This document shows, one piece after another, positions 1-10,425 of a stretch of 64,000 nucleotides of DNA (its first letter is position 1; each line of letters begins with the position of its first letter). The translations under genes were made by a program, and so were the position numbers. The DNA is from Rhodanobacter glycinis (lineage in GTDB: Bacteria > Pseudomonadota > Gammaproteobacteria > Xanthomonadales > Rhodanobacteraceae). Below the pieces are notes generated by a model. It did not search any database and was not told the DNA's origin. It saw only the letters and a list, made by a program, of their open reading frames with translations. The stretch spans positions 1-64,000 of the forward strand of contig NZ_RCZB01000007.1 of the NCBI RefSeq assembly GCF_006438785.1, read 5' to 3'.

Positions 1-1
1 G

Positions 2-268
2 GTCTTTACCAGCCGACACTACACGCGACTGGTACGCAGCTATGGCCTGCGGCAGGAATTCATCACACCACATTGCCCACAGCAGAACGGCATGGTGGAG
101 CGTGTCATCCGCACGTTGAAGGAGCAGTGCGCGCATCGGCATCGCTTCGAAACACAGCAGCACGCGATGCGCGTGATTGGCGACTGGATCCAGTTCTACA
201 ACCACCGGCGCCCCCATCAGGCGCTGGGCATGAAGACCCCCGCCGAGGCTTATGCTTTAGCGGCCTGA
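2..268 (+). CDS. IS3-type transposase (orfB), C-terminal fragment cut by the window edge
   Basis: The reading frame is open from the first bases of the window and ends in TGA at 266-268, giving about 88 residues of an rve integrase core. The last catalytic acid of the DDE triad lies in the motif QQNGMVERVIRTLKEQC. The tail FYNHRRPHQALGMKTP followed by EAYALAA is the usual C-terminus of IS3-family OrfB proteins. The 5' part lies outside the window. Just downstream, about 269-295 (CCTGTGCAGG to CATTACA), may be the right terminal inverted repeat, but the other end is not visible. From 296 to 471 I see no gene. The insertion probably explains why the next gene has lost its N-terminus. Confidence 0.85.
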   Translation, partial: VFTSRHYTRLVRSYGLRQEFITPHCPQQNGMVERVIRTLKEQCAHRHRFETQQHAMRVIGDWIQFYNHRRPHQALGMKTPAEAYALAA

Positions 269-501
269 CCTGTGCAGGAAGTGCTGGGTCATTACACAAA
301 TGGCTTAACTGCGCCAATTGCGCGGGAGTCTTGTCTCAACTTGTTCATTGCCGCTCAGACAAGCCCAGCGTGCGCTCATGGGTGAAACCATGGGCAGAAG
401 ATGGCGCGCGCATTTTGAAGAATTGTCCGATCTGAAGATCGGCAGGGCCAAAAGCCCGGGCCAATGGATGACGGCGGCGGACAGGACGGGAAACGCTCTC
501 C

Positions 502-1608
502 TTGCGCTTTCAACTCGGCAACATCAGCGGACCAGCGTCGCACGTTGAGGCTCCCTTTTTTCATCTACTGCCGAAACCGAAGGCGATGGATGCGAGCGGC
601 AAGATGGTGACGCTTGGTCAGATCACCGACATGCGTACGGGCGAGCAGTGGTCCAACCAAGAAGTCTTCATGCCCAACGGTGCTGAGTGGAGGTTCGACA
701 AGAACGCGCCAGAGCCGAAAGTGTGGATGAACTTCGTCGATGAACTCTTCGCGGATCGAACCGACGATGTGCAGCTGCTTCAGGAATGGATGGGGTACAT
801 GCTCAGCGGCGATACCTGGGCGCAGAAGGGTCTACTGGTTGTCGGCCCGAAGCGCGCTGGTAAGGGTGTCATTGGTGGCGTGCTGCGAAAGCTGCTTGGT
901 AAAAGCATGGTGGCGAGTCCGTCGCTGAAGGCGCTGGGGGACACGTTTGGACTCGAACATATGGTGGACAAGCGGATGTGCCTCATATCCGATGCCCGTC
1001 TTTCAACCCGCCAAGATACTGCCGCCGTAATCGAGATGCTGTTGCGGATCATCGGTTGCGATCAGGTAGACGTCTCGCGAAAAAATAAAACCGCACTGAC
1101 GCTTGAACTCGGGGTACGCGTGATGATGCTGGCTAACTCGATGCCACAACTTGGTGACGATAGCGATGCGATTACTTCACGGTTCTTGATAATTAATCTG
1201 ACTGAATCGTTTTATGGACGTGAGGATACGAAGCTAGCTGCCAAGCTGGAGAGAGAATTGCCCGGCATCGCGTTGTGGTCTATTGAAGGTTACAAGAGGT
1301 TGATAGCACGTGGGAAGTTTCAGGAGCCGCAATCATCGGTCGATGCGCGTTCGGAGTGGTACAACGAGAATAACCCAGTGGCGGAGTTCATTGAAGATCG
1401 CTGCGTTGTTGCGCGTGACCAGTCCGTTGAGAACTCAGTGCTGGGCAATGCCTACAACGAATGGAACGAAGCTCGCCACGCTCCACCTATGAACACCCAA
1501 GTCCTCAGCCGGAAGGTCGCAGCGATGCTTGGGCCGAAAATTACGCGTGTCGCTGGTCATGGTGCGCGGCGGATTGTCGGGCTGGGTCTCAAGAAGATGG
1601 CATTTTGA
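502..1608 (+). CDS. P4-alpha-like/SF3 helicase domain of a phage or satellite primase, N-terminally truncated
   Basis: The 368-residue product has a Walker A motif GPKRAGKG near residues 115-122, a Walker B-like segment RMCLISDAR near 156-164, and an SF3 sensor/arginine region (MLANSMPQLGDDSDAITSRF). This matches the helicase half of DUF5906/D5-like replication proteins of P4-type elements, which load at their own iteron origin. Full family members carry an N-terminal primase domain that is missing here. The frame is open only from 472 after a stop at 469-471, and the first start-like codon is a TTG at 502 with no good ribosome binding site. The gene therefore looks 5'-truncated, probably by the upstream insertion sequence, and may not be expressed. 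The iteron array starts 57 bp after its stop, as expected for a replication module. Confidence 0.8.
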   Translation: MRFQLGNISGPASHVEAPFFHLLPKPKAMDASGKMVTLGQITDMRTGEQWSNQEVFMPNGAEWRFDKNAPEPKVWMNFVDELFADRTDDVQLLQEWMGYMLSGDTWAQKGLLVVGPKRAGKGVIGGVLRKLLGKSMVASPSLKALGDTFGLEHMVDKRMCLISDARLSTRQDTAAVIEMLLRIIGCDQVDVSRKNKTALTLELGVRVMMLANSMPQLGDDSDAITSRFLIINLTESFYGREDTKLAAKLERELPGIALWSIEGYKRLIARGKFQEPQSSVDARSEWYNENNPVAEFIEDRCVVARDQSVENSVLGNAYNEWNEARHAPPMNTQVLSRKVAAMLGPKITRVAGHGARRIVGLGLKKMAF

Positions 1609-1665
1609 TGGACGGGATGTGCGCCATGAGCAACGGGCGATGCCGTGAAATCATCGCCGTGAATT

Positions 1666-1956
1666 GCGTCGCGGAATGCGTCGCTTTTCCTCCGAATTGC
1701 GTCGCGAATTGCGTCGCGGCTGGCGACGCCGCCCCCGGAGCTGGGTAGCGAGCGGCGAGTCTGCCGAGGCGAAATCTCCGAAGCGACGCAATTGGCGACG
1801 GAAAAGCGACGCAATTAGCGACGCAAAAGGCGTTGCCGGAGCTGGGACGCGACGCAAGCGACGCATTTTTTCCTTATTTGCCGAGGACAAAGGAAAAGAG
1901 GAAGAGGGAGAGAGGTATAGGAGAGCGGTATAGCAAAAAAGCGTCGCTTGCGTCGC
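1666..1956. repeat. Iteron array, probable replication origin of the integrated element
   Basis: Twelve exact copies of the 7-bp core GCGTCGC or its complement GCGACGC lie in 291 bp. Forward-form cores start at 1666, 1678, 1699, 1711, 1941 and 1950. Reverse-form cores start at 1723, 1783, 1806, 1818, 1849 and 1858. Pairs are spaced 12 bp (1666/1678, 1699/1711, 1806/1818) or 9 bp (1849/1858, 1941/1950). The 12-bp unit is close to GAATTGCGTCGC. Direct pairs on the left are mirrored by inverted pairs on the right. A relatively AT-rich stretch (ATTTTTTCCTTATTTG, about 1864-1879) and a purine tract lie between the last two groups. This arrangement next to a P4-alpha-like helicase gene fits an origin; that role is inferred. 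No convincing gene lies between 1609 and 2113. Confidence 0.75.
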
Positions 1957-2113
1957 GCCTAACCGCCCGGCAGACCCTTCGCCCTGTGGCGTAAGCGACC
2001 GGAAACAGGCCTAGGCGGGCCGCGCATCGCCGAGGCTAGACGAGGTACAGCACCGATCATCGCGGAAGGCGTCCGCGCCCCGGCAGCGAGCCGCATCGAA
2101 CCGAGAAACGACC

Positions 2114-2434
2114 ATGATTAACAAATGCCCATGCTGCGGTCACCGCTTCGCCGATCCGGATGCCGCGCCCGACCTGGTAGAGGAACTGACAAGCCAGTTC
2201 GCCGCTATATGCGCGCAAAACGATTATGCGATTACCGACGGAAGAGTTTCAGAAGTTGTCGCGGCAGCGCTGCTAGGAATCAGGAAGAAGAAATTAGCAA
2301 TGTTGCGCTCAGTAAATAATGGTCCGCCCTATTTCAACCTGCCAGTAGACGGCTCGCGATATTCGTATGAATTGAAGTCATTGGCAAAATGGAAACATTT
2401 TCAAAAGACGGGTGAAGAATGGGATATGGCATGA
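2114..2434 (+). CDS. Small Cys-motif protein with a possible excisionase/HTH-like C-terminus
   Basis: This 106-residue protein begins MINKCPCCGHRF. The CPCC pair is a possible half zinc ribbon. The C-terminal part (residues about 70-95, NGPPYFNLPVDGSRYSYE followed by LKSLAKW) has the wing-and-helix pattern seen in small MerR/AlpA-like regulators of integrative elements. I do not recognise a named family. It sits between the iteron array and the capsid gene on the same strand, so a role in control of excision, replication or late-gene expression is plausible. Its codon use is less GC-biased than the host genes around csrA. Confidence 0.6.
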   Translation: MINKCPCCGHRFADPDAAPDLVEELTSQFAAICAQNDYAITDGRVSEVVAAALLGIRKKKLAMLRSVNNGPPYFNLPVDGSRYSYELKSLAKWKHFQKTGEEWDMA

Positions 2435-2518
2435 ATGTCCATGCATGGCCATTTTTAAAATCGCAATGGATTACGCTCCGAGTTAATCCACCCCTTCACC
2501 CGACCGGAGCTAACCATT

Positions 2519-3523
2519 ATGCAAATCCCCAATATGAAAGGCCGTGAGTTCATTCGCATCGCCGTCACCAAAGCTTCTGTCGGTGGGGCTCAGGGCGTGG
2601 AAGCATTCACCGCCGCACGCTATGGATCGGATGGCCCGCGTATCGCAAAAGCGGCTATCGCTTCATTGAATTCATCCGAACTACTCGACGAGAGTATCGC
2701 CACCGCCTTCATCAGCACTGTCGTTGACAAGTCAGTGCTCGGCCAACTTCGCGGCGCGCGCCCCACCCCATTCAACACGCGCACACGCAAGCTGTCGTCT
2801 GGGGCGCGCGGCCACTTCGTCGCCGAAGCTGCACCCATCCCTCTGAGCAAGCAGTCAGTAGAAGGTTCCACGCTTCGCCCGCTCAAGGTCTATGCGCTCG
2901 TGGTCAGCACGAAGGAAGCCATCAGCTCACTCGACCCATTGGCAGAAGCAGGCCTTCAATCCGACCTTCAAACCGCTTGCGCCGCCGCGGTCAATATCGC
3001 CCTGCTAAACCCTGCCAACGCGGGCACCGCCAACGTCACTCCTGCTGCCATAACATTTGGCGCTCCTACAGTGGCCGCCACCGGCAACGCCGTCGCCGAC
3101 ATCAAGGTGCTGATCGCGGCCTTCAAGGGTGACATCTCCGCTGCGTACTTCGTCACCGATCCGGATACAGCGACCGCGCTGGCGATGGTACAGACGGCCA
3201 ATGATGCGTTCCTCTTTCCGGAATGTGGCCCGCGCGGAGGTGCGATTCTCGGCATTCCGCTTGTAACCACTATCGACTCGCCGCGCGATTCCAGCGGCGG
3301 TCAGCTCGCGTTGATCGACCCGACCGGCATCGCCTACAACATCGACGATGTACAGATGGACGTGGCAAAGAACGCCACACTTGCTATGTCAGATTCCCCG
3401 ACGTCGCCCGTGGAGCAGGTCAGTCTCTTCCAGACATCATCCGTCGCGTGGAAGGTGCTTATTCGCGCCAACTGGGAGAATCATCGCGCTTCCGGTGTCG
3501 CCGTGCTGACTGGGATCGTCTGA
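2519..3523 (+). CDS. Phage major capsid protein (HK97-type fold)
   Basis: The 334-residue product matches HK97-like major capsid proteins. It has a short N-terminal arm (FTAARYGSDGPRIAKAAIAS), an E-loop-like segment (FVAEAAPIPLSKQSVEGS), a spine helix rich in alanine (LAEAGLQSDLQTACAAAVN), and a C-terminal A-domain region (ILGIPLVTTIDSP). It is short and has no fused protease or long delta domain. A ribosome binding site (CGGAGC) precedes the ATG at 2519. The stop overlaps the next start (TGATG, 3521-3525), implying translational coupling. A capsid gene beside a P4-like replication gene points to a capsid-forming satellite or a prophage remnant. Confidence 0.85.
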   Translation: MQIPNMKGREFIRIAVTKASVGGAQGVEAFTAARYGSDGPRIAKAAIASLNSSELLDESIATAFISTVVDKSVLGQLRGARPTPFNTRTRKLSSGARGHFVAEAAPIPLSKQSVEGSTLRPLKVYALVVSTKEAISSLDPLAEAGLQSDLQTACAAAVNIALLNPANAGTANVTPAAITFGAPTVAATGNAVADIKVLIAAFKGDISAAYFVTDPDTATALAMVQTANDAFLFPECGPRGGAILGIPLVTTIDSPRDSSGGQLALIDPTGIAYNIDDVQMDVAKNATLAMSDSPTSPVEQVSLFQTSSVAWKVLIRANWENHRASGVAVLTGIV

Positions 3524-3840
3524 TGGAAACCTTCGATCAGCTCACAGCCAAGATGACCCCGAAGCAAAAGGCTGCACCAGCGACCTATGGCGACCTGATG
3601 CGGCTTATGCAAACCATGCTCAGCGCCAACAAGTTGCTCAAGCAACGCATCGAGCGGATCGAGGCCCGTGGCGTTAAATACTGTGGCACGTGGCAGCGCT
3701 CTGGCGAGTACGAACGCGGCGACCTCGCCACGCACAAGGGCAGCATGTGGCACGCGGTCACTTCGACCCGCGAAGAACCGGGTGCATCGTCCGCGTGGCA
3801 ACTCGCCGTCAAAGCAGGTCGCGACGGGAGATCGAAATGA
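3523..3840 (+). CDS. Small phage protein with a carbohydrate-binding-like (CBM5/12-type) C-terminal domain
   Basis: This is a 105-residue protein starting at an ATG that overlaps the capsid stop codon. Residues about 15-48 form a helical segment (YGDLMRLMQTMLSANKLLKQ). The second half contains the pattern YCGTWQRSGEYERGDLATHK, then GSMWHAV and W-x-L-x-VKAGRDG. That spacing of aromatic residues and GD is typical of small carbohydrate-binding or decoration domains attached to phage structural proteins. It may decorate the capsid or assist assembly. It ends in an ATGA overlap with the next gene, so three genes are coupled. The function is inferred. Confidence 0.65.
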   Translation: METFDQLTAKMTPKQKAAPATYGDLMRLMQTMLSANKLLKQRIERIEARGVKYCGTWQRSGEYERGDLATHKGSMWHAVTSTREEPGASSAWQLAVKAGRDGRSK

Positions 3841-4088
3841 CCCCTGACAAAGCGCGCATCGCCTATCCCGACACCTGGGCATCTATCCAGCAACAAGTTG
3901 CTGAAGTCCGAGCCGCTGGCGCTGATGTTGTTCAGCTGGACGTGCGGGTCATCGACGTCAATGGCATTCCCACGTTGGAGCTGACCACGATTGCCGACTA
4001 CGCGGTGGAAGACGATGACGCCCCGGCATCCAGCATCCGCTTCCGCGCTGTGCTCGCGGAGCGTCCAGCAGTCCATGTCGTGCATTGA
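3837..4088 (+). CDS. Small phage-associated hypothetical protein
   Basis: An 83-residue acidic protein starting at the ATG at 3837, which overlaps the previous stop (ATGA). The sequence starts MTPDKARIAYPDTWASIQQQ and contains a beta-rich middle part (VVQLDVRVIDVNGIPTLELT). No family is recognised. The tight coupling to the capsid gene suggests a virion or assembly role. Between it and the next gene, 4089-4161 holds a G-run/C-run inverted repeat (GGGG at about 4104, CCCC at about 4117) and an eight-T run near 4152; this could be a weak terminator, but I do not call one. Confidence 0.6.
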   Translation: MTPDKARIAYPDTWASIQQQVAEVRAAGADVVQLDVRVIDVNGIPTLELTTIADYAVEDDDAPASSIRFRAVLAERPAVHVVH

Positions 4089-4161
4089 GGCCACGTCCGA
4101 CCGGGGGGAGTGAACACCCCTCCGGCCCATCCACGGGAATCCGTCCCCGTTCATTTTTTTA

Positions 4162-4557
4162 ATGTGCAATGAAGGTTTTGAAACGAAAAAAATCATGAAG
4201 ACCCCCGCCCCACCCGCAATCAAGTCCACGAAGACCCAGCAGCGACTGCCGCCCAAGTCCCTGTCGGCTGAAGGGGGAGCCATATGGAAGCGTCTGCTGG
4301 CTGACTATGAGATCAATGACGAAGCAGGCCTGCTCCTGCTCCAGACAGGTCTGGAAGCGTATGACCGTTTGAAGCAATGTCAGCAGGCGATCCAGCGCGA
4401 CGGCCCGCAGGTGCTCGACAGATTCGGCTACTTGAAGGCCCATCCGCTTCTGCCCGCAGAGCGCGCCTCACGCACGCAGATGCTGGCCGCCTTCAAGGCG
4501 CTTCATCTCGACATCGAGCCATTACACGCCCAGCCCGGACGCCCGGCAGGGAGTTAG
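4162..4557 (+). CDS. P27-family phage terminase small subunit
   Basis: The 131-residue protein carries the P27 terminase small-subunit pattern: P-x-x-LSAEGGAIWKRLLADYE near residues 31-51, a central helix (LLLLQTGLEAYDRLKQCQQA), and HPLLPAERASRTQMLAAFKA near 94-113. Such subunits recognise DNA for packaging and normally act with a large terminase, which is not present anywhere in this window. An alternative start is the ATG at 4195 (MKTPAPPAI), which would remove 11 residues; neither start has a strong ribosome binding site. Confidence 0.8.
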   Translation: MCNEGFETKKIMKTPAPPAIKSTKTQQRLPPKSLSAEGGAIWKRLLADYEINDEAGLLLLQTGLEAYDRLKQCQQAIQRDGPQVLDRFGYLKAHPLLPAERASRTQMLAAFKALHLDIEPLHAQPGRPAGS

Positions 4558-4562
4558 ACGCA

Positions 4563-5042
4563 ATGCCTACCAATCGCCGCTATCGCACCCGTGTTCGCCA
4601 CCCGCCCATCGACCCAGTTCACTGGGCGATCCTGACCGACGCACCGCCGCCGGCAGACGCCAATCCCTTCCTCGCGATGGATCGCAACTTCGATCCGGTC
4701 ATGCGACCGCTATGGGAAGTCCAAGGCCCAGCGATCCTCATCGACTGGATCGCGGCTCACCCAGGTACGCGCCCGTCTTGTTGGTGGCGCTACCAAGCCC
4801 CGAGCGGCGGGCGCCAGTGCCTCTTCGGCGAAGGCAAGCCGCTTCACGAAGTGCTCAACATCGCGCCGTCCTACGCCTTCGGCATCCCGGACTGGTGTGG
4901 CGATCCGGAAGCCCCGCCGATCTTTGAAACCCAGCATGCGTACCTGAAGCGCCATGGGCTGCTAGAACCGGGCGAGCGCAAGCCGCGCTCCGAACCGCAT
5001 CCTCTTCCGTTGCGCATTGTGCCCGTTACGCTGTGGAAATAA
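4563..5042 (+). CDS. Phage-associated hypothetical protein
   Basis: A 159-residue protein starting at the ATG at 4563, five bases after the small terminase stop. It is rich in Pro, Trp and Arg (IDWIAAHPGTRPSCWWRYQA) with a motif FGIPDWCGDPEAPPIFETQ. I know no function for it. Similar Trp/Pro-rich genes often sit beside terminase genes in Xanthomonadales prophages, but that is context only. It ends 24 bp before the convergent membrane-effector gene, so this is where the phage-like block stops and where a large terminase would be expected. Confidence 0.6.
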   Translation: MPTNRRYRTRVRHPPIDPVHWAILTDAPPPADANPFLAMDRNFDPVMRPLWEVQGPAILIDWIAAHPGTRPSCWWRYQAPSGGRQCLFGEGKPLHEVLNIAPSYAFGIPDWCGDPEAPPIFETQHAYLKRHGLLEPGERKPRSEPHPLPLRIVPVTLWK

Positions 5043-5066
5043 ACATGGGATGCGCGGCGCAAATTG

Positions 5067-5834
5067 CTATTGGAAGCGCAAGGCTGCTTTGATGACATCC
5101 CATTCATTGGAGAGAGATAGATTCATGTCATCAAAAATCTTTGATGACAATGTTATTGCCGCGTTCGCTTTGGCAGTTTCGTATAAAGAGACAGCCTCAA
5201 ATGCCATCGCATGAAATTGATCGACAGGCGGTTGCGACTGAAATAGCTTGTAAACGTCGTCAAACGTTTTCTCGAACCGAACTCTCAGCCATTCGAGTCG
5301 AATCCATCGCGAGACAAGTTGCTCGCTGAACACTGCTTGCGACGCTGCTACAACTACACCGAGGTCGGTTTGCCTACAAAGTACGCAGACCAGCCAGAGT
5401 GAAACGTACAGGATTATCCTTACACGCTCAGCCCTCGCCATTCGCAGAGAAACTGCCTTGCTGAAGTGACTATTCTCTAGTACCTGCGCGGCCATTCGCT
5501 TAATGGGATCGGCGAACTCATTGTTGTAGTAGCCATCCGTTTTCTGATGAATCAGGCTAATGCCCCAAGCACTGCTAAAAAATTCCTGAAGGCGCTTGTC
5601 TTGCGCGCGCGGCGTAAGGTACAGACGAGAAACTAGACCCATGACGAACAGTGATAGCGCTGACACGCCAAAAGCAATCAGCACCGCCGACGAAATAGCT
5701 GGGAAATTTGCCTGATTAACAAGAAGGCAGACAATGGAAAGGAAGGCTCCAAGATAAAAGAGGAAATCCGAAACCTTGTCGCCCAATTCTACAGCCTTGA
5801 AATACTCTTTTCGAATAGGATCAGAGCGTGACAT
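5067..5834 (-). CDS. Predicted membrane (pore-forming) effector of a CBASS-like system, S-4TM/SLATT-like
   Basis: This 255-residue protein has two hydrophobic helices at about residues 22-43 and 47-70, and two more at about 138-157 and 159-176. The segment between and the C-terminal tail are charged. That layout fits the SMODS-associated 4TM or SLATT-type effectors, which are thought to open pores in the inner membrane when the partner CD-NTase makes a nucleotide signal. Its start (ATG at 5834) lies five bases after the CD-NTase stop, so the two genes form an operon. The low-GC codon use contrasts with the host. The exact effector family is uncertain; the call depends on the transmembrane pattern and the neighbour. 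Confidence 0.65.
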   Translation of the reverse strand: MSRSDPIRKEYFKAVELGDKVSDFLFYLGAFLSIVCLLVNQANFPAISSAVLIAFGVSALSLFVMGLVSRLYLTPRAQDKRLQEFFSSAWGISLIHQKTDGYYNNEFADPIKRMAAQVLENSHFSKAVSLRMARAERVRIILYVSLWLVCVLCRQTDLGVVVAASQAVFSEQLVSRWIRLEWLRVRFEKTFDDVYKLFQSQPPVDQFHAMAFEAVSLYETAKANAAITLSSKIFDDMNLSLSNEWDVIKAALRFQ

Positions 5835-5839
5835 TTGTC

Positions 5840-6703
5840 TTACCCATGGGCTGGAAATTCATTCCCAAATATTTGCCGCCAGATTTCGATGGCGCCCTTG
5901 TCATCGTGATTATCTCCATATGTCTTGTGCCAAGCATTCCTACTTTTTTCAATTGCCGTATCGAAGCGCTTTAGCACTTCCTGCCTGTCAGACCAAGAAA
6001 GGTAGTCATCGGCGAGACCGGTTCCGTACCAGATGTAGTTCTCAAGCTGTGTTCGGGCTTTGCTGAAGAACTGGAAGATCTGCCAAGGCATATCGCTTAG
6101 ATCGGCATCAAAAACGTTGATCGCCAACACTTCAATATGGTAACTCTGAAGATAGCCACTGTGGATACGATTCCAGTGCTTGATCATCTTGATGATCCTC
6201 CTGAAATTGGGGCCACACGTCGACGCTTTTGATTCGATAATTGCGGCATGTTCTTTCGGTTTGGACTCGATCCATTTGTCAGTGTTCGAGTCGGGTACGT
6301 TGTAATGCGTTACGTTTCCATTCCCATCTACCACCCTGGCAACAGGAACAACGTCCACATTCGGCCAAGTCGTATAGCTAAGAGTGACAGCTTGCCCATT
6401 GCGGCGAACTCCTGTCCGCCACTCCGACAATGCGTCGCGGACGCTTTGAAGGACTTGGGTTGGGGTTTTGTCTTTGATGTGTCTGTCGTAATGCAGCGCC
6501 ACAATCACATCTAGATCGGCATGCTGCCGCAGAGCTGTGTACTTAGGTATCGATCCGGCGCTAAACGCTTCGACAATTCCTAATGACTTGCTGAGTTTCG
6601 AGACGATGTCGTCTCTGCGACCATTGGCTGTGCTGCGATGGTCGCCGCCGAGGTTGATTTTGTCGTGGAACTGGTCGAAGGAAACGGCAACTGTATATGG
6701 CAT
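5840..6703 (-). CDS. CD-NTase (SMODS nucleotidyltransferase) of a CBASS-like antiphage system
   Basis: The 287-residue protein has the polymerase-beta-like active site of CGAS/DncV-like enzymes: a G-S motif at residues 50-51 (FSAGSIPKYTALRQ), paired aspartates at about 63 and 65 (ADLDVIVAL) and a third at about 117 (NVDVVPV). The family makes cyclic di- or oligonucleotide signals on phage infection. I chose the ATG at 6703 because GGAG lies six bases upstream; a TTG at 6715 would add four residues. It is the first gene of a two-gene operon with the membrane effector. No Cap2/Cap3 or HORMA/TRIP13 genes are present, so it would be a minimal type I layout. Confidence 0.82.
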   Translation of the reverse strand: MPYTVAVSFDQFHDKINLGGDHRSTANGRRDDIVSKLSKSLGIVEAFSAGSIPKYTALRQHADLDVIVALHYDRHIKDKTPTQVLQSVRDALSEWRTGVRRNGQAVTLSYTTWPNVDVVPVARVVDGNGNVTHYNVPDSNTDKWIESKPKEHAAIIESKASTCGPNFRRIIKMIKHWNRIHSGYLQSYHIEVLAINVFDADLSDMPWQIFQFFSKARTQLENYIWYGTGLADDYLSWSDRQEVLKRFDTAIEKSRNAWHKTYGDNHDDKGAIEIWRQIFGNEFPAHG

Positions 6704-7114
6704 GCAATGCTCCAACTAACGGCAGCGCCCGATGCGCCTAGTGCGACGAGCGAACTTTGTGTCAGCGGATTTCGCGTGGTCCGCGCTCACGTAACTGAAC
6801 GGACGCGTGGCACAGACGATGCCAGTCTGATTGACTTTCATTGTCGCCCCCAGTTGCATTCCATGCTCATGACTCGTCCTGTGAATAGCCCCTGATCGCA
6901 GGGTACATGCCAGTAGCGGCCGAAAACCACCCCTTACACCATGCCTGCACGTGCAGGCACGTGTCGCATGGATGAACCGGCACTACCTACCGACCCGCCT
7001 TCCGCGCGAGGCGGAAATCGCCGCGCGAATAGCGCTCGCCCACCGTCCGTAGCAGTCCGTCCGTAAGCGGATTGGCTAGTAGGGACTAAGGTAGGGGCTT
7101 CGAGCGATGAGCAA
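6704..7114. other. Intergenic region between the CD-NTase gene and tRNA-Ser
   Basis: About 410 bp hold no convincing gene. The promoter of the CD-NTase operon should lie in the first 150 bases, but I cannot fix its boxes. The one clear structure is the palindrome at 6942-6959. The right boundary of the integrated element is expected in this stretch or at the tRNA itself. Confidence 0.5.
6942..6959. repeat. Perfect 18-bp palindrome
   Basis: TGCCTGCACGTGCAGGCA reads the same on both strands with no loop. It could bind a dimeric regulator, act as a recombination site, or be the stem of a transcript end. It lies between the defence operon and tRNA-Ser, near the expected edge of the element. Confidence 0.6.
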
Positions 7115-7142
7115 CAAAAAAGCCCCTAGAATCAGGGGCTTA
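7115..7142 (-). terminator. Rho-independent terminator of tRNA-Ser
   Basis: On the minus strand an 8-bp stem (AAGCCCCT with AGGGGCTT, 7120-7127 and 7134-7141) with a 6-base loop is followed by a run of six T (7115-7120). It ends transcription about 11 bp after the tRNA 3' end. Confidence 0.8.
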
Positions 7143-7152
7143 ATTGCGTATC

Positions 7153-7245
7153 TGGCGGAGAGAGAGGGATTCGAACCCTCGATAAGGCTTTTGACCCTAT
7201 ACTCCCTTAGCAGGGGAGCCCCTTCGGCCACTCGGGCATCTCTCC
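7153..7245 (-). tRNA. tRNA-Ser (anticodon GCT)
   Basis: The minus strand begins GGAGAGATGCCCGAGTGG and ends with the T-arm GGTTCGAATCC, acceptor strand TCTCTCC, discriminator G and an encoded CCA (7153-7155). The anticodon loop CTGCTAA gives GCT, reading AGC/AGU. The long variable arm (TAGGGTCAAAAGCCTTA) is typical of class II serine tRNAs. Its place next to csrA matches the serV position in other gammaproteobacteria. The mobile region lies on its 3' side, the usual geometry for tRNA-targeting integrases. Confidence 0.97.
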
Positions 7246-7319
7246 GGGTTTTTCCCGCATCACTGCGGAGCCGGCAAGGATACTGACCGGCGAGGTCGAG
7301 GTAAAGGCTTAATTCATCA

Positions 7320-7526
7320 TCAGTGTTCGGCGGACTCGTCAGGCGGCACGCTGCCCGTCTCGTGCTCGCCCTTGATCCGCTGGTAGATTTCTTCGCGATG
7401 GACGGCGACAGTCTTCGGTGCATTGATGCCGATGCGCACCTGATTGCCTTTCACACCGAGAACGGTGACGGTCACCTCGTCGCCGATCATCAGGGTTTCA
7501 CCGACCCTGCGGGTCAGAATCAACAT
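7320..7526 (-). CDS. csrA: CsrA carbon storage regulator
   Basis: The 68-residue product starts [20 protein letters not shown] and contains the core [17 protein letters not shown], then [10 protein letters not shown]. It is an RNA-binding homodimer that recognises GGA motifs in mRNA leaders and controls carbon flux, motility and biofilm genes. The acidic extension after residue 60 is usual for the group. The gene follows alaS on the same strand. The 250-bp gap before alaS carries three copies of GACGCTCAG (minus-strand reading), described in the findings. Confidence 0.97.
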
Positions 7527-7797
7527 GATTGCTACTCTCCATAAAGCTGTTGGTCACAGGCCTGCAGCATGACGGTGCCTCACCCCTGAGCGTCCGTCCG
7601 TCCGCAGTTCGACGATTGATCCGTCGAAGGCCCTACCGCCTTCCCGGCTCACAGCCAAAACACTCCTGAGCGTCCTGACTGGCGACACCGCCGTACAGGC
7701 AATGTCGACACGCGGTCGATACTAACTGAGCGTCATTGTCGGGCGCAATGTGTTCGAATCGTGACAAATGGCATGTTCAGGTTGGTATTTTTTCGGA

Positions 7798-10425
7798 TCA
7801 CTGCGTGGCAACCCATGCCGGCAGCGCAGCCAGGATCGCCGGGAGCTGGGGTGAGTCCGATCCGCCGCCCTGGGCCATGTCCGAACGACCGCCACCCTTG
7901 CCGTCGATCTGCGCGGCGACATGCGCGACCACGCTGCCGGCCTTGATCCGACCCAGCGCCTTGCCGTGCACGCCGGCGATCAACGAAACGTGGCCATCGG
8001 CCGCTCCGGCCAGCACGATCACGCAATCGCCGAGCTGCTGTTTGAGCTGATCCACGCTGTCACGCAACGACTTGGCATCAAGCCCCTCCAGTCGCGCGGC
8101 AACCACCTTGATGCCATCGATATCCGTCGCGGAACCGGCTAGGTCGGCAGTGGCAGAACCCGCTGCCTTGCTGCGCAGCGAATCCAGTTCGCGCTCGAGT
8201 TTTTTCTGGCGATCAAACAGCTGACGCAGCTTTTCCACCGCATCGTCGCCGCTGCTGGAAAGCAGCTGCGACAGCTCGCCCAGACGACGCTCCTCATCGG
8301 CCACGTACGCCAGCGCACCATCACCGGTGACCGCCTCGATGCGACGCACGCCGGAGGCGACACCCGCCTCGCTGACGATCTTGAACAGGCCAATGTCTCC
8401 GGTACGGTCGACATGCGTACCGCCGCACAGCTCGGAGGAGAAATCGCCCATCTTCAGCACGCGCACTTCATCACCGTATTTCTCGCCAAATAACGCCATT
8501 GCACCGAAACCGATCGCGTCGTCGTAGGCCATGTTGCGCACCTCGGCTGCTGCATTGCGACGCACTTCGGCATTCACCATGGCCTCGACCTTCTTCAGCT
8601 CGTCGGCACCCATCGGCTTGAAGTGCGAGAAGTCGAAACGCAGCCGTTGCGGCGCGACCAGCGAACCTTTCTGCGTAACGTGGTCACCCAACACCTTGCG
8701 CAATGCCGCATGCAGCAGATGGGTGGCCGAATGATTGAGCACGATGGCCTGCCTTCGCTTGGCATCCACGCGTGCCTCGACCACATCGCCGGTACGCAAG
8801 GGCTCACCACCAACCCAGCGACCGGCATGACCGAAGAACACGCCACCCATCTTCAACGTATCGCCGACTTCGAAGCGACCAGCGGCGGCGACTAACTCGC
8901 CGGTGTCACCCACCTGCCCGCCCGACTCGGCGTAGAACGGTGTGTGATCGAGGATCAGCAAACCCTGCTCGCCCTCAACAAGCTGATCGACTTGCTTGCC
9001 GCCACGTACGATGCCAAGCACCATGCTGCCTTCACTGTGCAGCACTTCATAACCGAGAAACACCGTGGGTTTGAGCTGGCTGGCCAGCTCGGCCGGCATC
9101 TGTCCTTTTGCCTCGAAACGACCGGCAGCACGTGCACGCTCGCGCTGTTCGTTCATCGACTTCTCGAAACCGTCCATGTCGACTTCCAGCCCTCGCTCGC
9201 GAGCGATGTCCGCGGTGAGATCGACCGGGAAGCCATAGGTGTCGTACAGACGGAACGCATCGATGCCGGGAATGATTTTTCCGGACTTGCCTGCCACTTC
9301 GTCGAACAGCCGCATGCCGTGCTCCAGCGTCTCGCCAAAGCGCTGTTCCTCGATGCGCAACGCGTCCTCGACGAACGACTGCTTCGCTGTCAGCTCGGGA
9401 TAGGCCGCGCCCATTTCCTCGACCAGTGGCCGCACCATCTTCCAGAAGAAATCGCCACGCACACCAAGCATCCAGCCATGCCGCAGGGCGCGACGGATGA
9501 TCCGACGCAGCACGTAGCCGCGCCCCTCGTTGGATGGCAGCACGCCATCGACGATCAGGAAGGAACAGGCGCGGATGTGGTCGGCGATCACGCGCAGCGA
9601 CTTGTTGGACAGGTCGGTGGTATGAGTGAGTTCGCCGGCAACGCGAATCAGGTGCGCGAACAGGTCGATCTCGTAATTGGAGTGCACGTGCTGCAGCACG
9701 GCGGCGAGCCGTTCCAGGCCCATGCCGGTGTCTACGCACGGTGCCGGCAGCGAACTCAGCGTGCCATCGGGCGCACGGTCGAACTGCATGAACACCAGGT
9801 TCCAGATCTCGATGTAGCGATCGCCGTCCTCATCCGGCGAACCAGGCGGTCCACCGGCGATGTCGGCGCCATGATCGAAGAAAATCTCGGTGCAGGGGCC
9901 GCATGGACCGGTGTCGGCCATCTGCCAGAAATTGTCGGACGCATACGGCGCACCCTTGTTGTCGCCGATGCGCACGATGCGTTCGGCCGGCACGCCGACC
10001 TGCTTGTTCCAGATGTCGAAGGCTTCGTCGTCGGTGTGGTAGACGGTGACCCACAACTTGTCCGCTGGCAGCTTGAATACGCCGGTCAGCAGTTCCCACG
10101 CGTAGATGATCGCATCGCGCTTGAAATAGTCGCCGAACGACCAGTTGCCGAGCATCTCGAAGAACGTGTGATGGCGTGCGGTGTAACCCACCGCATCCAG
10201 GTCGTTGTGCTTGCCGCCGGCACGCAGGCAGCGCTGCACGTCCGCTGCCCGGACGAATCCAGGTTTTTCGCTGCCGAGAAACACGTTCTTGAACTGCACC
10301 ATGCCCGAGTTGGTGAACAACAGGGTCGGATCGCTGGATGGCACCAGCGAGCTGGACGGCACGATGGTGTGGCCCTTGGAGCGGAAGTAATCGAGGAAGG
10401 TCGAACGGATTTCGGAGGTTTTCAT
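7798..10425 (-). CDS. alaS: Alanyl-tRNA synthetase
   Basis: The 875-residue enzyme charges tRNA-Ala. The class II core begins [19 protein letters not shown] and includes [13 protein letters not shown]. The editing domain has the metal-binding [11 protein letters not shown] and the C-x-x-x-H pattern [15 protein letters not shown]. The C-terminal C-Ala domain includes [14 protein letters not shown]. The ATG at 10425 (MKTSEI) is the conserved start; the frame is open 16 codons upstream, but that part is not conserved sequence. It sits between recX and csrA as in most gammaproteobacteria. Confidence 0.97.

Follow-up and report, generated by a model that had tools for sequence, protein, structure and literature searches.

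Why should a dozen copies of one heptamer be packed into 291 bp directly downstream of a helicase gene? The locus is found in Rhodanobacter glycinis; the window, i.e., the whole stretch of DNA analysed here, comprises 64,000 nucleotides. A sequence-only reading had placed a probable element origin next to a P4-like helicase gene. The proposal is supported by the helicase itself, which exceeds the NCBIfam cut-off for TIGR01613 ("phage/plasmid primase, P4 family") and the Pfam cut-off for DUF5906, and by arrays at the same place in relatives. The evidence discussed below makes us fairly confident that a phage satellite of the PICI type has its replication origin in this array.

The array and the element that carries it

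The segment from 1666 to 1956 holds 12 exact GCGTCGC cores on either strand. They start at 1666, 1678, 1699, 1711, 1941 and 1950 on the plus strand and at 1723, 1783, 1806, 1818, 1849 and 1858 on the minus strand, the spacings being 12, 21, 12, 12, 60, 23, 12, 31, 9, 83 and 9 bp. A degenerate 13th copy, CCGTCGC on the minus strand at 1795, divides the spacing of 23 bp into 12 and 11. The array begins 58 bp 3' of the truncated helicase gene. The number of cores and their 12- and 9-bp spacings stand as originally described. Its two-sided character has to be qualified: Direct and inverted pairs do exist, but they do not form a simple mirror of left and right, the real order being ++++ ------ ++. 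The AT-rich stretch, too, had been misplaced. It does not separate a left from a right half, but extends from about 1865 to 1940, between the inverted 9-bp pairs 1849/1858 and 1941/1950, and has 41% G+C versus 63.5% for the window.

A G+C-rich core could be clustered by chance or belong to a repeat dispersed over the chromosome, and the genome (17 contigs, 4.28 Mb) does contain 79 copies of the 9-mer TTGCGTCGC. This is, however, less than the 110 copies of the backward-read control, and no second dense TTGCGTCGC cluster was seen among the genome places listed; the scattering over the chromosome that had been feared is absent. When the window was shuffled 200 times (first-order Markov), no 291-bp stretch had more than 4 cores, and 4 was also the maximum in 5000 shuffles of 1601-2060; the 12 cores exceed this by far. 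Homologous arrays, moreover, exist in relatives. A pair pattern with up to 2 mismatches matches in 81 of 233 family genomes, mostly at single scattered places, and its backward control likewise matches in many of them. In view of genome count, shuffles and the family-wide pattern search, chance or dispersal was rejected; its probability is negligible. A search of 1-8000 for structured RNA (Rfam) matched the tRNA only.

Table. Genes and array elements at the left end of the window, with strand and basis of assignment
Feature	Position	Strand	Basis
IS transposase, C-terminal end (integrase core)	2-268	+	Pfam rve_3 2e-22, rve_2
5'-truncated DUF5906/P4-family (D5-type SF3) helicase, presumed former initiator	502-1608	+	
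Iteron array, 12 exact and 1 degenerate GCGTCGC, presumed origin	1666-1956	.	core scan and relatives
Additional direct pair 12 bp apart, no counterpart in most relatives	1666-1684	+	array alignment
+ + - block at 12, 12 bp (relatives: 11-12, 11)	1699-1729	.	spacing comparison
Inverted block of 4 sites (12, 11, 12 bp; second one degenerate), spacing shared by L027, L026, L028	1783-1824	-	
Inverted pair 9 bp apart, left flank of AT/purine-rich stretch	1849-1864	-	
Presumed melting region, rich in A+T and purines (41% G+C)	1865-1940	.	aligns with relatives' stretch
Direct pair 9 bp apart, right flank of AT-rich stretch	1941-1956	+	
Small ORF with CxxC start, conserved in satellite group	2114-2434	+	39% to relatives; no family match
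HK97-type major capsid protein	2519-3523	+	Pfam Phage_capsid 6.1e-13; 49-52% to relatives' copies
Small capsid-block ORF; C-terminal half resembles only portal and tail-fibre module	3523-3840	+	PHROGs
Small ORF, capsid block, conserved place	3837-4088	+	no family match; equivalent ORFs in relatives
Small terminase subunit TerS (P27/Terminase_4 type)	4195-4557	+	phrog_83 4.2e-8
Conserved satellite ORF	4563-5042	+	50-56% to relatives (longer ORF 4377-5042); no family match
Cargo: CBASS-type 4TM effector	5067-5834	-	PADLOC 1.4e-105; 76% to L027 copy
Cargo: CBASS-type oligonucleotide cyclase (SMODS)	5840-6715	-	PADLOC 6.6e-103, Pfam SMODS; 83% to L027
tRNA-Ser (GCT), presumed right attachment site	7153-7245	-	same tRNA carries att repeat in L027, L028

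The window is the start of its contig, which begins inside an IS transposase; the IS apparently ends near 297, as read in the sequence. The helicase frame is open only from 472. Its ATPase and C-terminal domains are kept, and most of the N-terminal domain is missing. Among the genes that follow the array, the ORF at 3523-3840 matches a portal family over its last 54 positions only, plus tail-fibre families, and TerS remains just below the Pfam cut-off, which its counterpart in the relative L027 exceeds. Coliphage proteins that bear the name prohead protease, or are annotated as a capsid fused to it, share about 30% identity with the capsid protein (2519-3523); the latter is much shorter than these, the prohead protease part being absent. 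Prophage-like capsid copies, 33-34% identical, are found in two congeners. The CBASS cyclase and 4TM pair next to the tRNA recurs in the L027 element, while other relatives have different genes there.

An L027-type integrase is absent from the window's genome assembly, and the att core occurs in its genome in one copy only. For these reasons the idea that the left half resides elsewhere in the genome was rejected, and the window is considered to hold the right-hand part of the element. The gene lpxH, which adjoins the left att site in L028's genome, is on another contig here (C1:17115-17840), and the ORFs of C1:1-17000 look like host genes, as judged by reading them. The contig begins in an IS transposase, the helicase is cut beside the IS, and lpxH lies on another contig; this suggests an IS-linked rearrangement at the tRNA-Ser site. 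Loss of the left part linked to the IS is the simplest reading, the junction being hidden by the contig end. Integrase and regulators are accordingly known from the relatives only. Since the N-terminal part of the helicase is lost beside the IS end and the integrase is missing, the window copy can probably no longer replicate autonomously and has probably lost its mobility, too.

Near relatives: one frame, two words

The helicase is found in five of 233 genomes of the family, the window's own included, and in three of its 26 genera. At class level, one of 369 genomes matched, which again was the window's own, and a single-protein search of genome contigs revealed no relative. Near relatives with an array at the same place are four genomes (L025, L026, L027, L028) and a metagenome contig (L125). 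The four genomic ones are compact elements at tRNA genes, namely tRNA-Pro, tRNA-Ser (TGA) and twice tRNA-Ser (GCT), and are equipped with att repeats (37, 14, 17 and 23 bp); in L027 and L028 the repeat is at tRNA-Ser (GCT). Their order is integrase, small genes, helicase, array, small ORF, capsid, small ORFs, TerS, an uncharacterised ORF and cargo. L125 shows the same block from the helicase to the uncharacterised ORF. The intact helicase ORFs comprise 509-580 aa.

Family matches in L027 (Pfam/NCBIfam) are confined to integrase, HTH protein, DUF5906, capsid (NCBIfam) and TerS. The integrase has its Pfam match in L027; those of L028 and L026 are 84% and 81% identical to it, and L025 has a different one. 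The small gene upstream of rep in L027 (HTH_17 1.9e-9, excise 3.9e-9) is excisionase/AlpA-like and has near-identical counterparts in L026 and L028; L025, too, has a small gene at this place. The gene is not found in the window copy, which lacks its left part. Among the loci compared, capsid and TerS of this group are restricted to the near group, with 7 matches each including duplicate records, apart from one distant capsid match in L192.

In all five relatives the helicase stop is followed by the array at a distance of about 20 bp or less. If one-base variants of the unit are counted, the spacings are 12, 21, 12, 12, 60, 12, 11, 12, 31, 9, 83, 9 in the window; 11, 11, 73, 12, 11, 12, 32, 9, 80, 9, 10 in L027; 12, 11, 73, 12, 11, 12, 33, 9, 80, 9 in L026; 11, 12, 11, 73, 12, 11, 12, 33, 9, 80, 9 in L028; 12, 11, 73, 12, 11, 44, 9, 81, 9 in L025; and 11, 11, 47, 37, 12, 11, 43, 9, 79, 9, 39 in L125. 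Site by site they are nearly identical: Compare 12, 11, 12, 31, 9, 83, 9 in the window with 12, 11, 12, 32, 9, 80, 9 in L027.

The unit itself is another one. In the window, GCGTCGC occurs 12 times and TCGTCGG never. In the relatives it is TCGTCGG that occurs, 8-10 times, and GCGTCGC is absent save for a single copy in L125 that lies outside its main block. The inner CGTCG is common to both units. GCGTCGG appears in the last pair, with two copies in L026 and one in L028. The 12-bp unit, once proposed as a signature of such elements, does not serve as one: The five near relatives use TCGTCGG and share with the window only position and spacing of the sites, and the search for GAATTGCGTCGC beside other DUF5906 genes yielded nothing. 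The worry that the array might not be conserved in homologues has not come true for its geometry, which is kept, but has come true for its unit. Compared with the literature examined, a wholesale change of the unit at kept geometry within one group is new; its functional meaning is a matter of interpretation. One array frame combined with two words makes the near group a natural experiment on how initiator and origin specificity change together.

Window and L027 helicases are 61% identical in the ATPase region and 29% in the winged helix, and 54 of 131 N-terminal positions can be aligned, with 24% identity. The sole PDB match of the helicase profile up to E 0.01 is the SaPI5 primase-helicase (7OLA/7OM0, 4.8e-17). 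An AlphaFold model of the L027 helicase (pLDDT 90, 65 sequences) matches this enzyme with Z 30.3 over residues 35-506 at 17% identity. Its C-terminus is a winged helix with helices 447-460 and 468-478 and two strands. The latter helix starts with SNKLSEAL in L027, has NKL or NKV in the five relatives and reads TQVLSRKV in the window. The available text of PMC7581432 describes that the C-terminal domains of SaPI Rep and Cch2 recognise origin repeats downstream of the gene. By analogy, helix 468-478 may be the reader of the iterons. Given the ATPase domain, iterons and helicase C-termini co-vary with a partial correlation of 0.14 (p 0.0045, 39 arrays). Without the near group the value drops to 0.05 (p 0.20, 34 arrays) and is not significant, which is why co-variation of iteron and winged helix is not claimed.

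Arrays downstream of helicase genes at large

The wider survey started from the best 80 genomic and the best 80 viral loci obtained with an alignment query, which stem from Planctomycetota, Actinomycetota, Alphaproteobacteria and other groups. To these 160 loci eight were added by hand, four of which (L012, L033, L034, L035) have no 3' array. Of the 168 candidates, 21 were dropped as near-duplicates and 4 because their 3' side was short, which left 143 distinct loci. An array was called if at least 5 copies of one 7-mer occurred within a stretch of 450 bp around the stop codon of the helicase gene. This was the case in 51 of the 143 loci or, without the eight, in 47 of 135 (28/77 genomic and 19/58 viral, from the best 80 each); by this 7-mer measure, 92 of the 143 are devoid of an array. 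The controls refer to an earlier set of 128 loci with 44 positives, which omitted 16 of the 80 viral loci and included four that had been added knowing their arrays (window, L028, L026, L036). They yielded 1/122 for the 5' side of the helicase, 70/4419 for random segments, 9/749 for the 3' side of other long ORFs, and 5/460 for those among the latter in which no long ORF occupies the next 200 bp or more. Among four order-level relatives, L036 has an array; L033, L034 and L035 have none.

In the viral contig L012, the helicase of which is a 32% relative, a GCGCAACA cluster (7763-8062) is on the 5' and not on the 3' side. Another viral contig, L128, has up to 18 copies of CGAACCTC (6286-6675) about 2.8 kb upstream of the helicase.

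Repeat units vary widely among the surveyed loci. Of the 153 spacings between neighbouring same-strand copies in 35 non-redundant arrays, 100 measure 9-12 bp and none 13-18. Inverted 7-12 bp pairs around a gap of 70-115 bp are seen in 13 of the 35 (permutation mean 4.1, maximum 12 in 2000). The gap has a lower G+C content than the locus in 12 of the 16 arrays listed, but not in the other four. Planctomycete gaps in L072, L075, L080 and L104 are G+C-rich alternating CG/CA runs instead of AT-rich stretches. A spacing of 9-10 bp beside one of 41-46 bp occurs in 10 of 35 arrays; random placement reaches a mean of 2.3 and never this number in 300 trials. The order of the two is not supported, as permuting each array's own spacings gives a mean of 8.3 (p 0.22). 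Support is confined to the spacings themselves: Adjacent spacings of 41-46 bp were counted 16 times, those of 35-40 bp 4 times and those of 47-52 bp 5 times.

A broad survey of such 3' origins was not recognised in our literature search. The spread of the helicase-plus-3'-array layout across phyla is new with respect to the literature examined, its functional significance again being a matter of interpretation. With 51 of 143 loci positive, the layout offers an easy means of locating the origins of satellites and kindred elements where genomes are unannotated.

One may try to join these observations in a single scheme, which we offer as a tentative one that is somewhat more likely to need revision than to survive as it stands. 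Satellites, PICIs and P4 would share a spacing grammar: same-strand iterons one helical turn apart (9-12 bp) 3' of self-loading helicases of the D5/P4 type, inverted 9-12 bp pairs that flank a melting stretch of 70-115 bp, and often a further block some 43 bp away. The word written in this grammar would be freely replaceable, and the window, with GCGTCGC against the TCGTCGG of every near relative, would present its complete replacement along with a turnover of the helicase's recognition helix. If so, related satellites would be isolated from each other's initiators.

Probable origin, rival explanations and known systems

The case for a PICI-type origin is built on the array directly 3' of the helicase with near-identical spacing in the window and five relatives, on the compact build of the four genomic relatives at tRNA genes with att repeats, on the 51/143 loci with 3' arrays versus low control rates, and on the SaPI5-like fold (Z 30) with a C-terminal winged helix. 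It is further backed by EcCICFT073, which has the same order and a two-sided array, and whose rep-ori drives a plasmid. The 92 array-less loci, the three order-level relatives that have no array, the 5' cluster of L012, gaps that are not always AT-rich and the non-significant co-variation outside the near group have to be counted against it, as has the missing left part of the element. As to mechanism, the self-loading D5-type helicase would bind the iterons via its C-terminal winged helix. Helicase rings might then form on the inverted 9-bp pairs at either side of ~1865-1940 and melt this AT/purine-rich stretch, and bidirectional copying would start once a helper phage lifts repression. A string of repeats has thus become a candidate origin with a named unit, an initiator domain and an expected melting region.

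Other functions of such a site have to be weighed. Satellites need a packaging signal, and the array lies upstream of the capsid gene and TerS; it might therefore be a packaging or terminase-recognition site that came to lie between helicase and capsid genes by chance. TerS and capsid of this group are, however, confined to the near group (with the one distant capsid), while arrays lie 3' of the helicase in 51/143 loci, and P4 crr and the EcCICFT073 origin occupy the same place. We consider a packaging site very unlikely. Operators and partition-type sites, too, typically have dense repeats in direct and inverted orientation; they would be bound by a regulator or a ParB-like protein instead of the helicase. 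Yet the scan of window proteins brought no recognisable partition gene to light, the position of the array tracks the helicase gene across phyla, and a mere permutation of sites does not account for the inverted pairs that flank the gap of 70-115 bp (13/35 arrays against a mean of 4.1). A site of this kind is just as improbable as the packaging site. The replication origin remains our preferred explanation.

The spacings and layout of P4 crr/ori and of EcCICFT073 mark the window array as a known kind of origin. P4 resembles it in that crr (4291-4590) immediately adjoins the 3' end of alpha (4636-6969, minus strand), in the spacings (9, 43, 18, 14 in crr; 10, 11, 22, 43, 10 in ori) and in an alpha-type initiator with a P4-family helicase domain, the profile matching alpha with 90.6 bits. 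Unlike the window, P4 has two separate repeat regions; its alpha comprises 777 aa as opposed to 509-580 aa in the intact relatives, and the latter also lack the primase domain that is fused to the helicase in P4-like satellites (the SaPI5 match begins at 333). The P4 late genes psu, sid, delta and epsilon were not recognised among the proteins of the window, which is devoid of the left part. In cfPICI, i.e., capsid-forming PICIs, the satellite has its own capsid and terminase genes, as is the case here. A complete cfPICI head module also comprises portal and large terminase; between the window's helicase and tRNA only capsid and TerS were recognised, but divergent genes could escape recognition. 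The archaeal plasmid pRN1 has its origin, too, downstream of a primase-helicase replication gene (PMC4234260, available text), yet with a stem-loop instead of iterons. In SaPIs, an iteron origin lies directly downstream of rep (PMC7581432, available text), as in our array. The SaPI5 primase-helicase shares helicase fold and C-terminal winged helix (Z 30), but the fused primase is missing here, the match covering SaPI5 residues 333-765 only, at 17% identity.

EcCICFT073, a PICI of E. coli CFT073, has integrase, small HTH gene, rep, an array directly 3' of rep and capsid. Its two-sided GGTAGA repeats are spaced 9, 46, 22, 11, 9, 31, 11, 22, 46, 9, and its Rep was found by the helicase family profile (86 bits). 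It differs in repeat unit, host and insertion site; in the aligned part the identity of its Rep amounts to only about 21-22%, and BLAST gave no match between its capsid protein and the window's. According to the available text of PMC6092414, the EcCICFT073 rep-ori was shown to drive a plasmid, and the origin of a PICI follows rep immediately on its 3' side and comprises an AT-rich region with one iteron set at either end. Two iteron sets around an AT-rich region 3' of rep are what we find here. An integrase with a specific attachment site is present in the four genomic relatives and not in the window copy, and the excisionase/AlpA-like regulator upstream of rep is present in L027, L026 and L028, again not in the window copy. 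The nearest published layout is the PICI rep-ori rather than P4.
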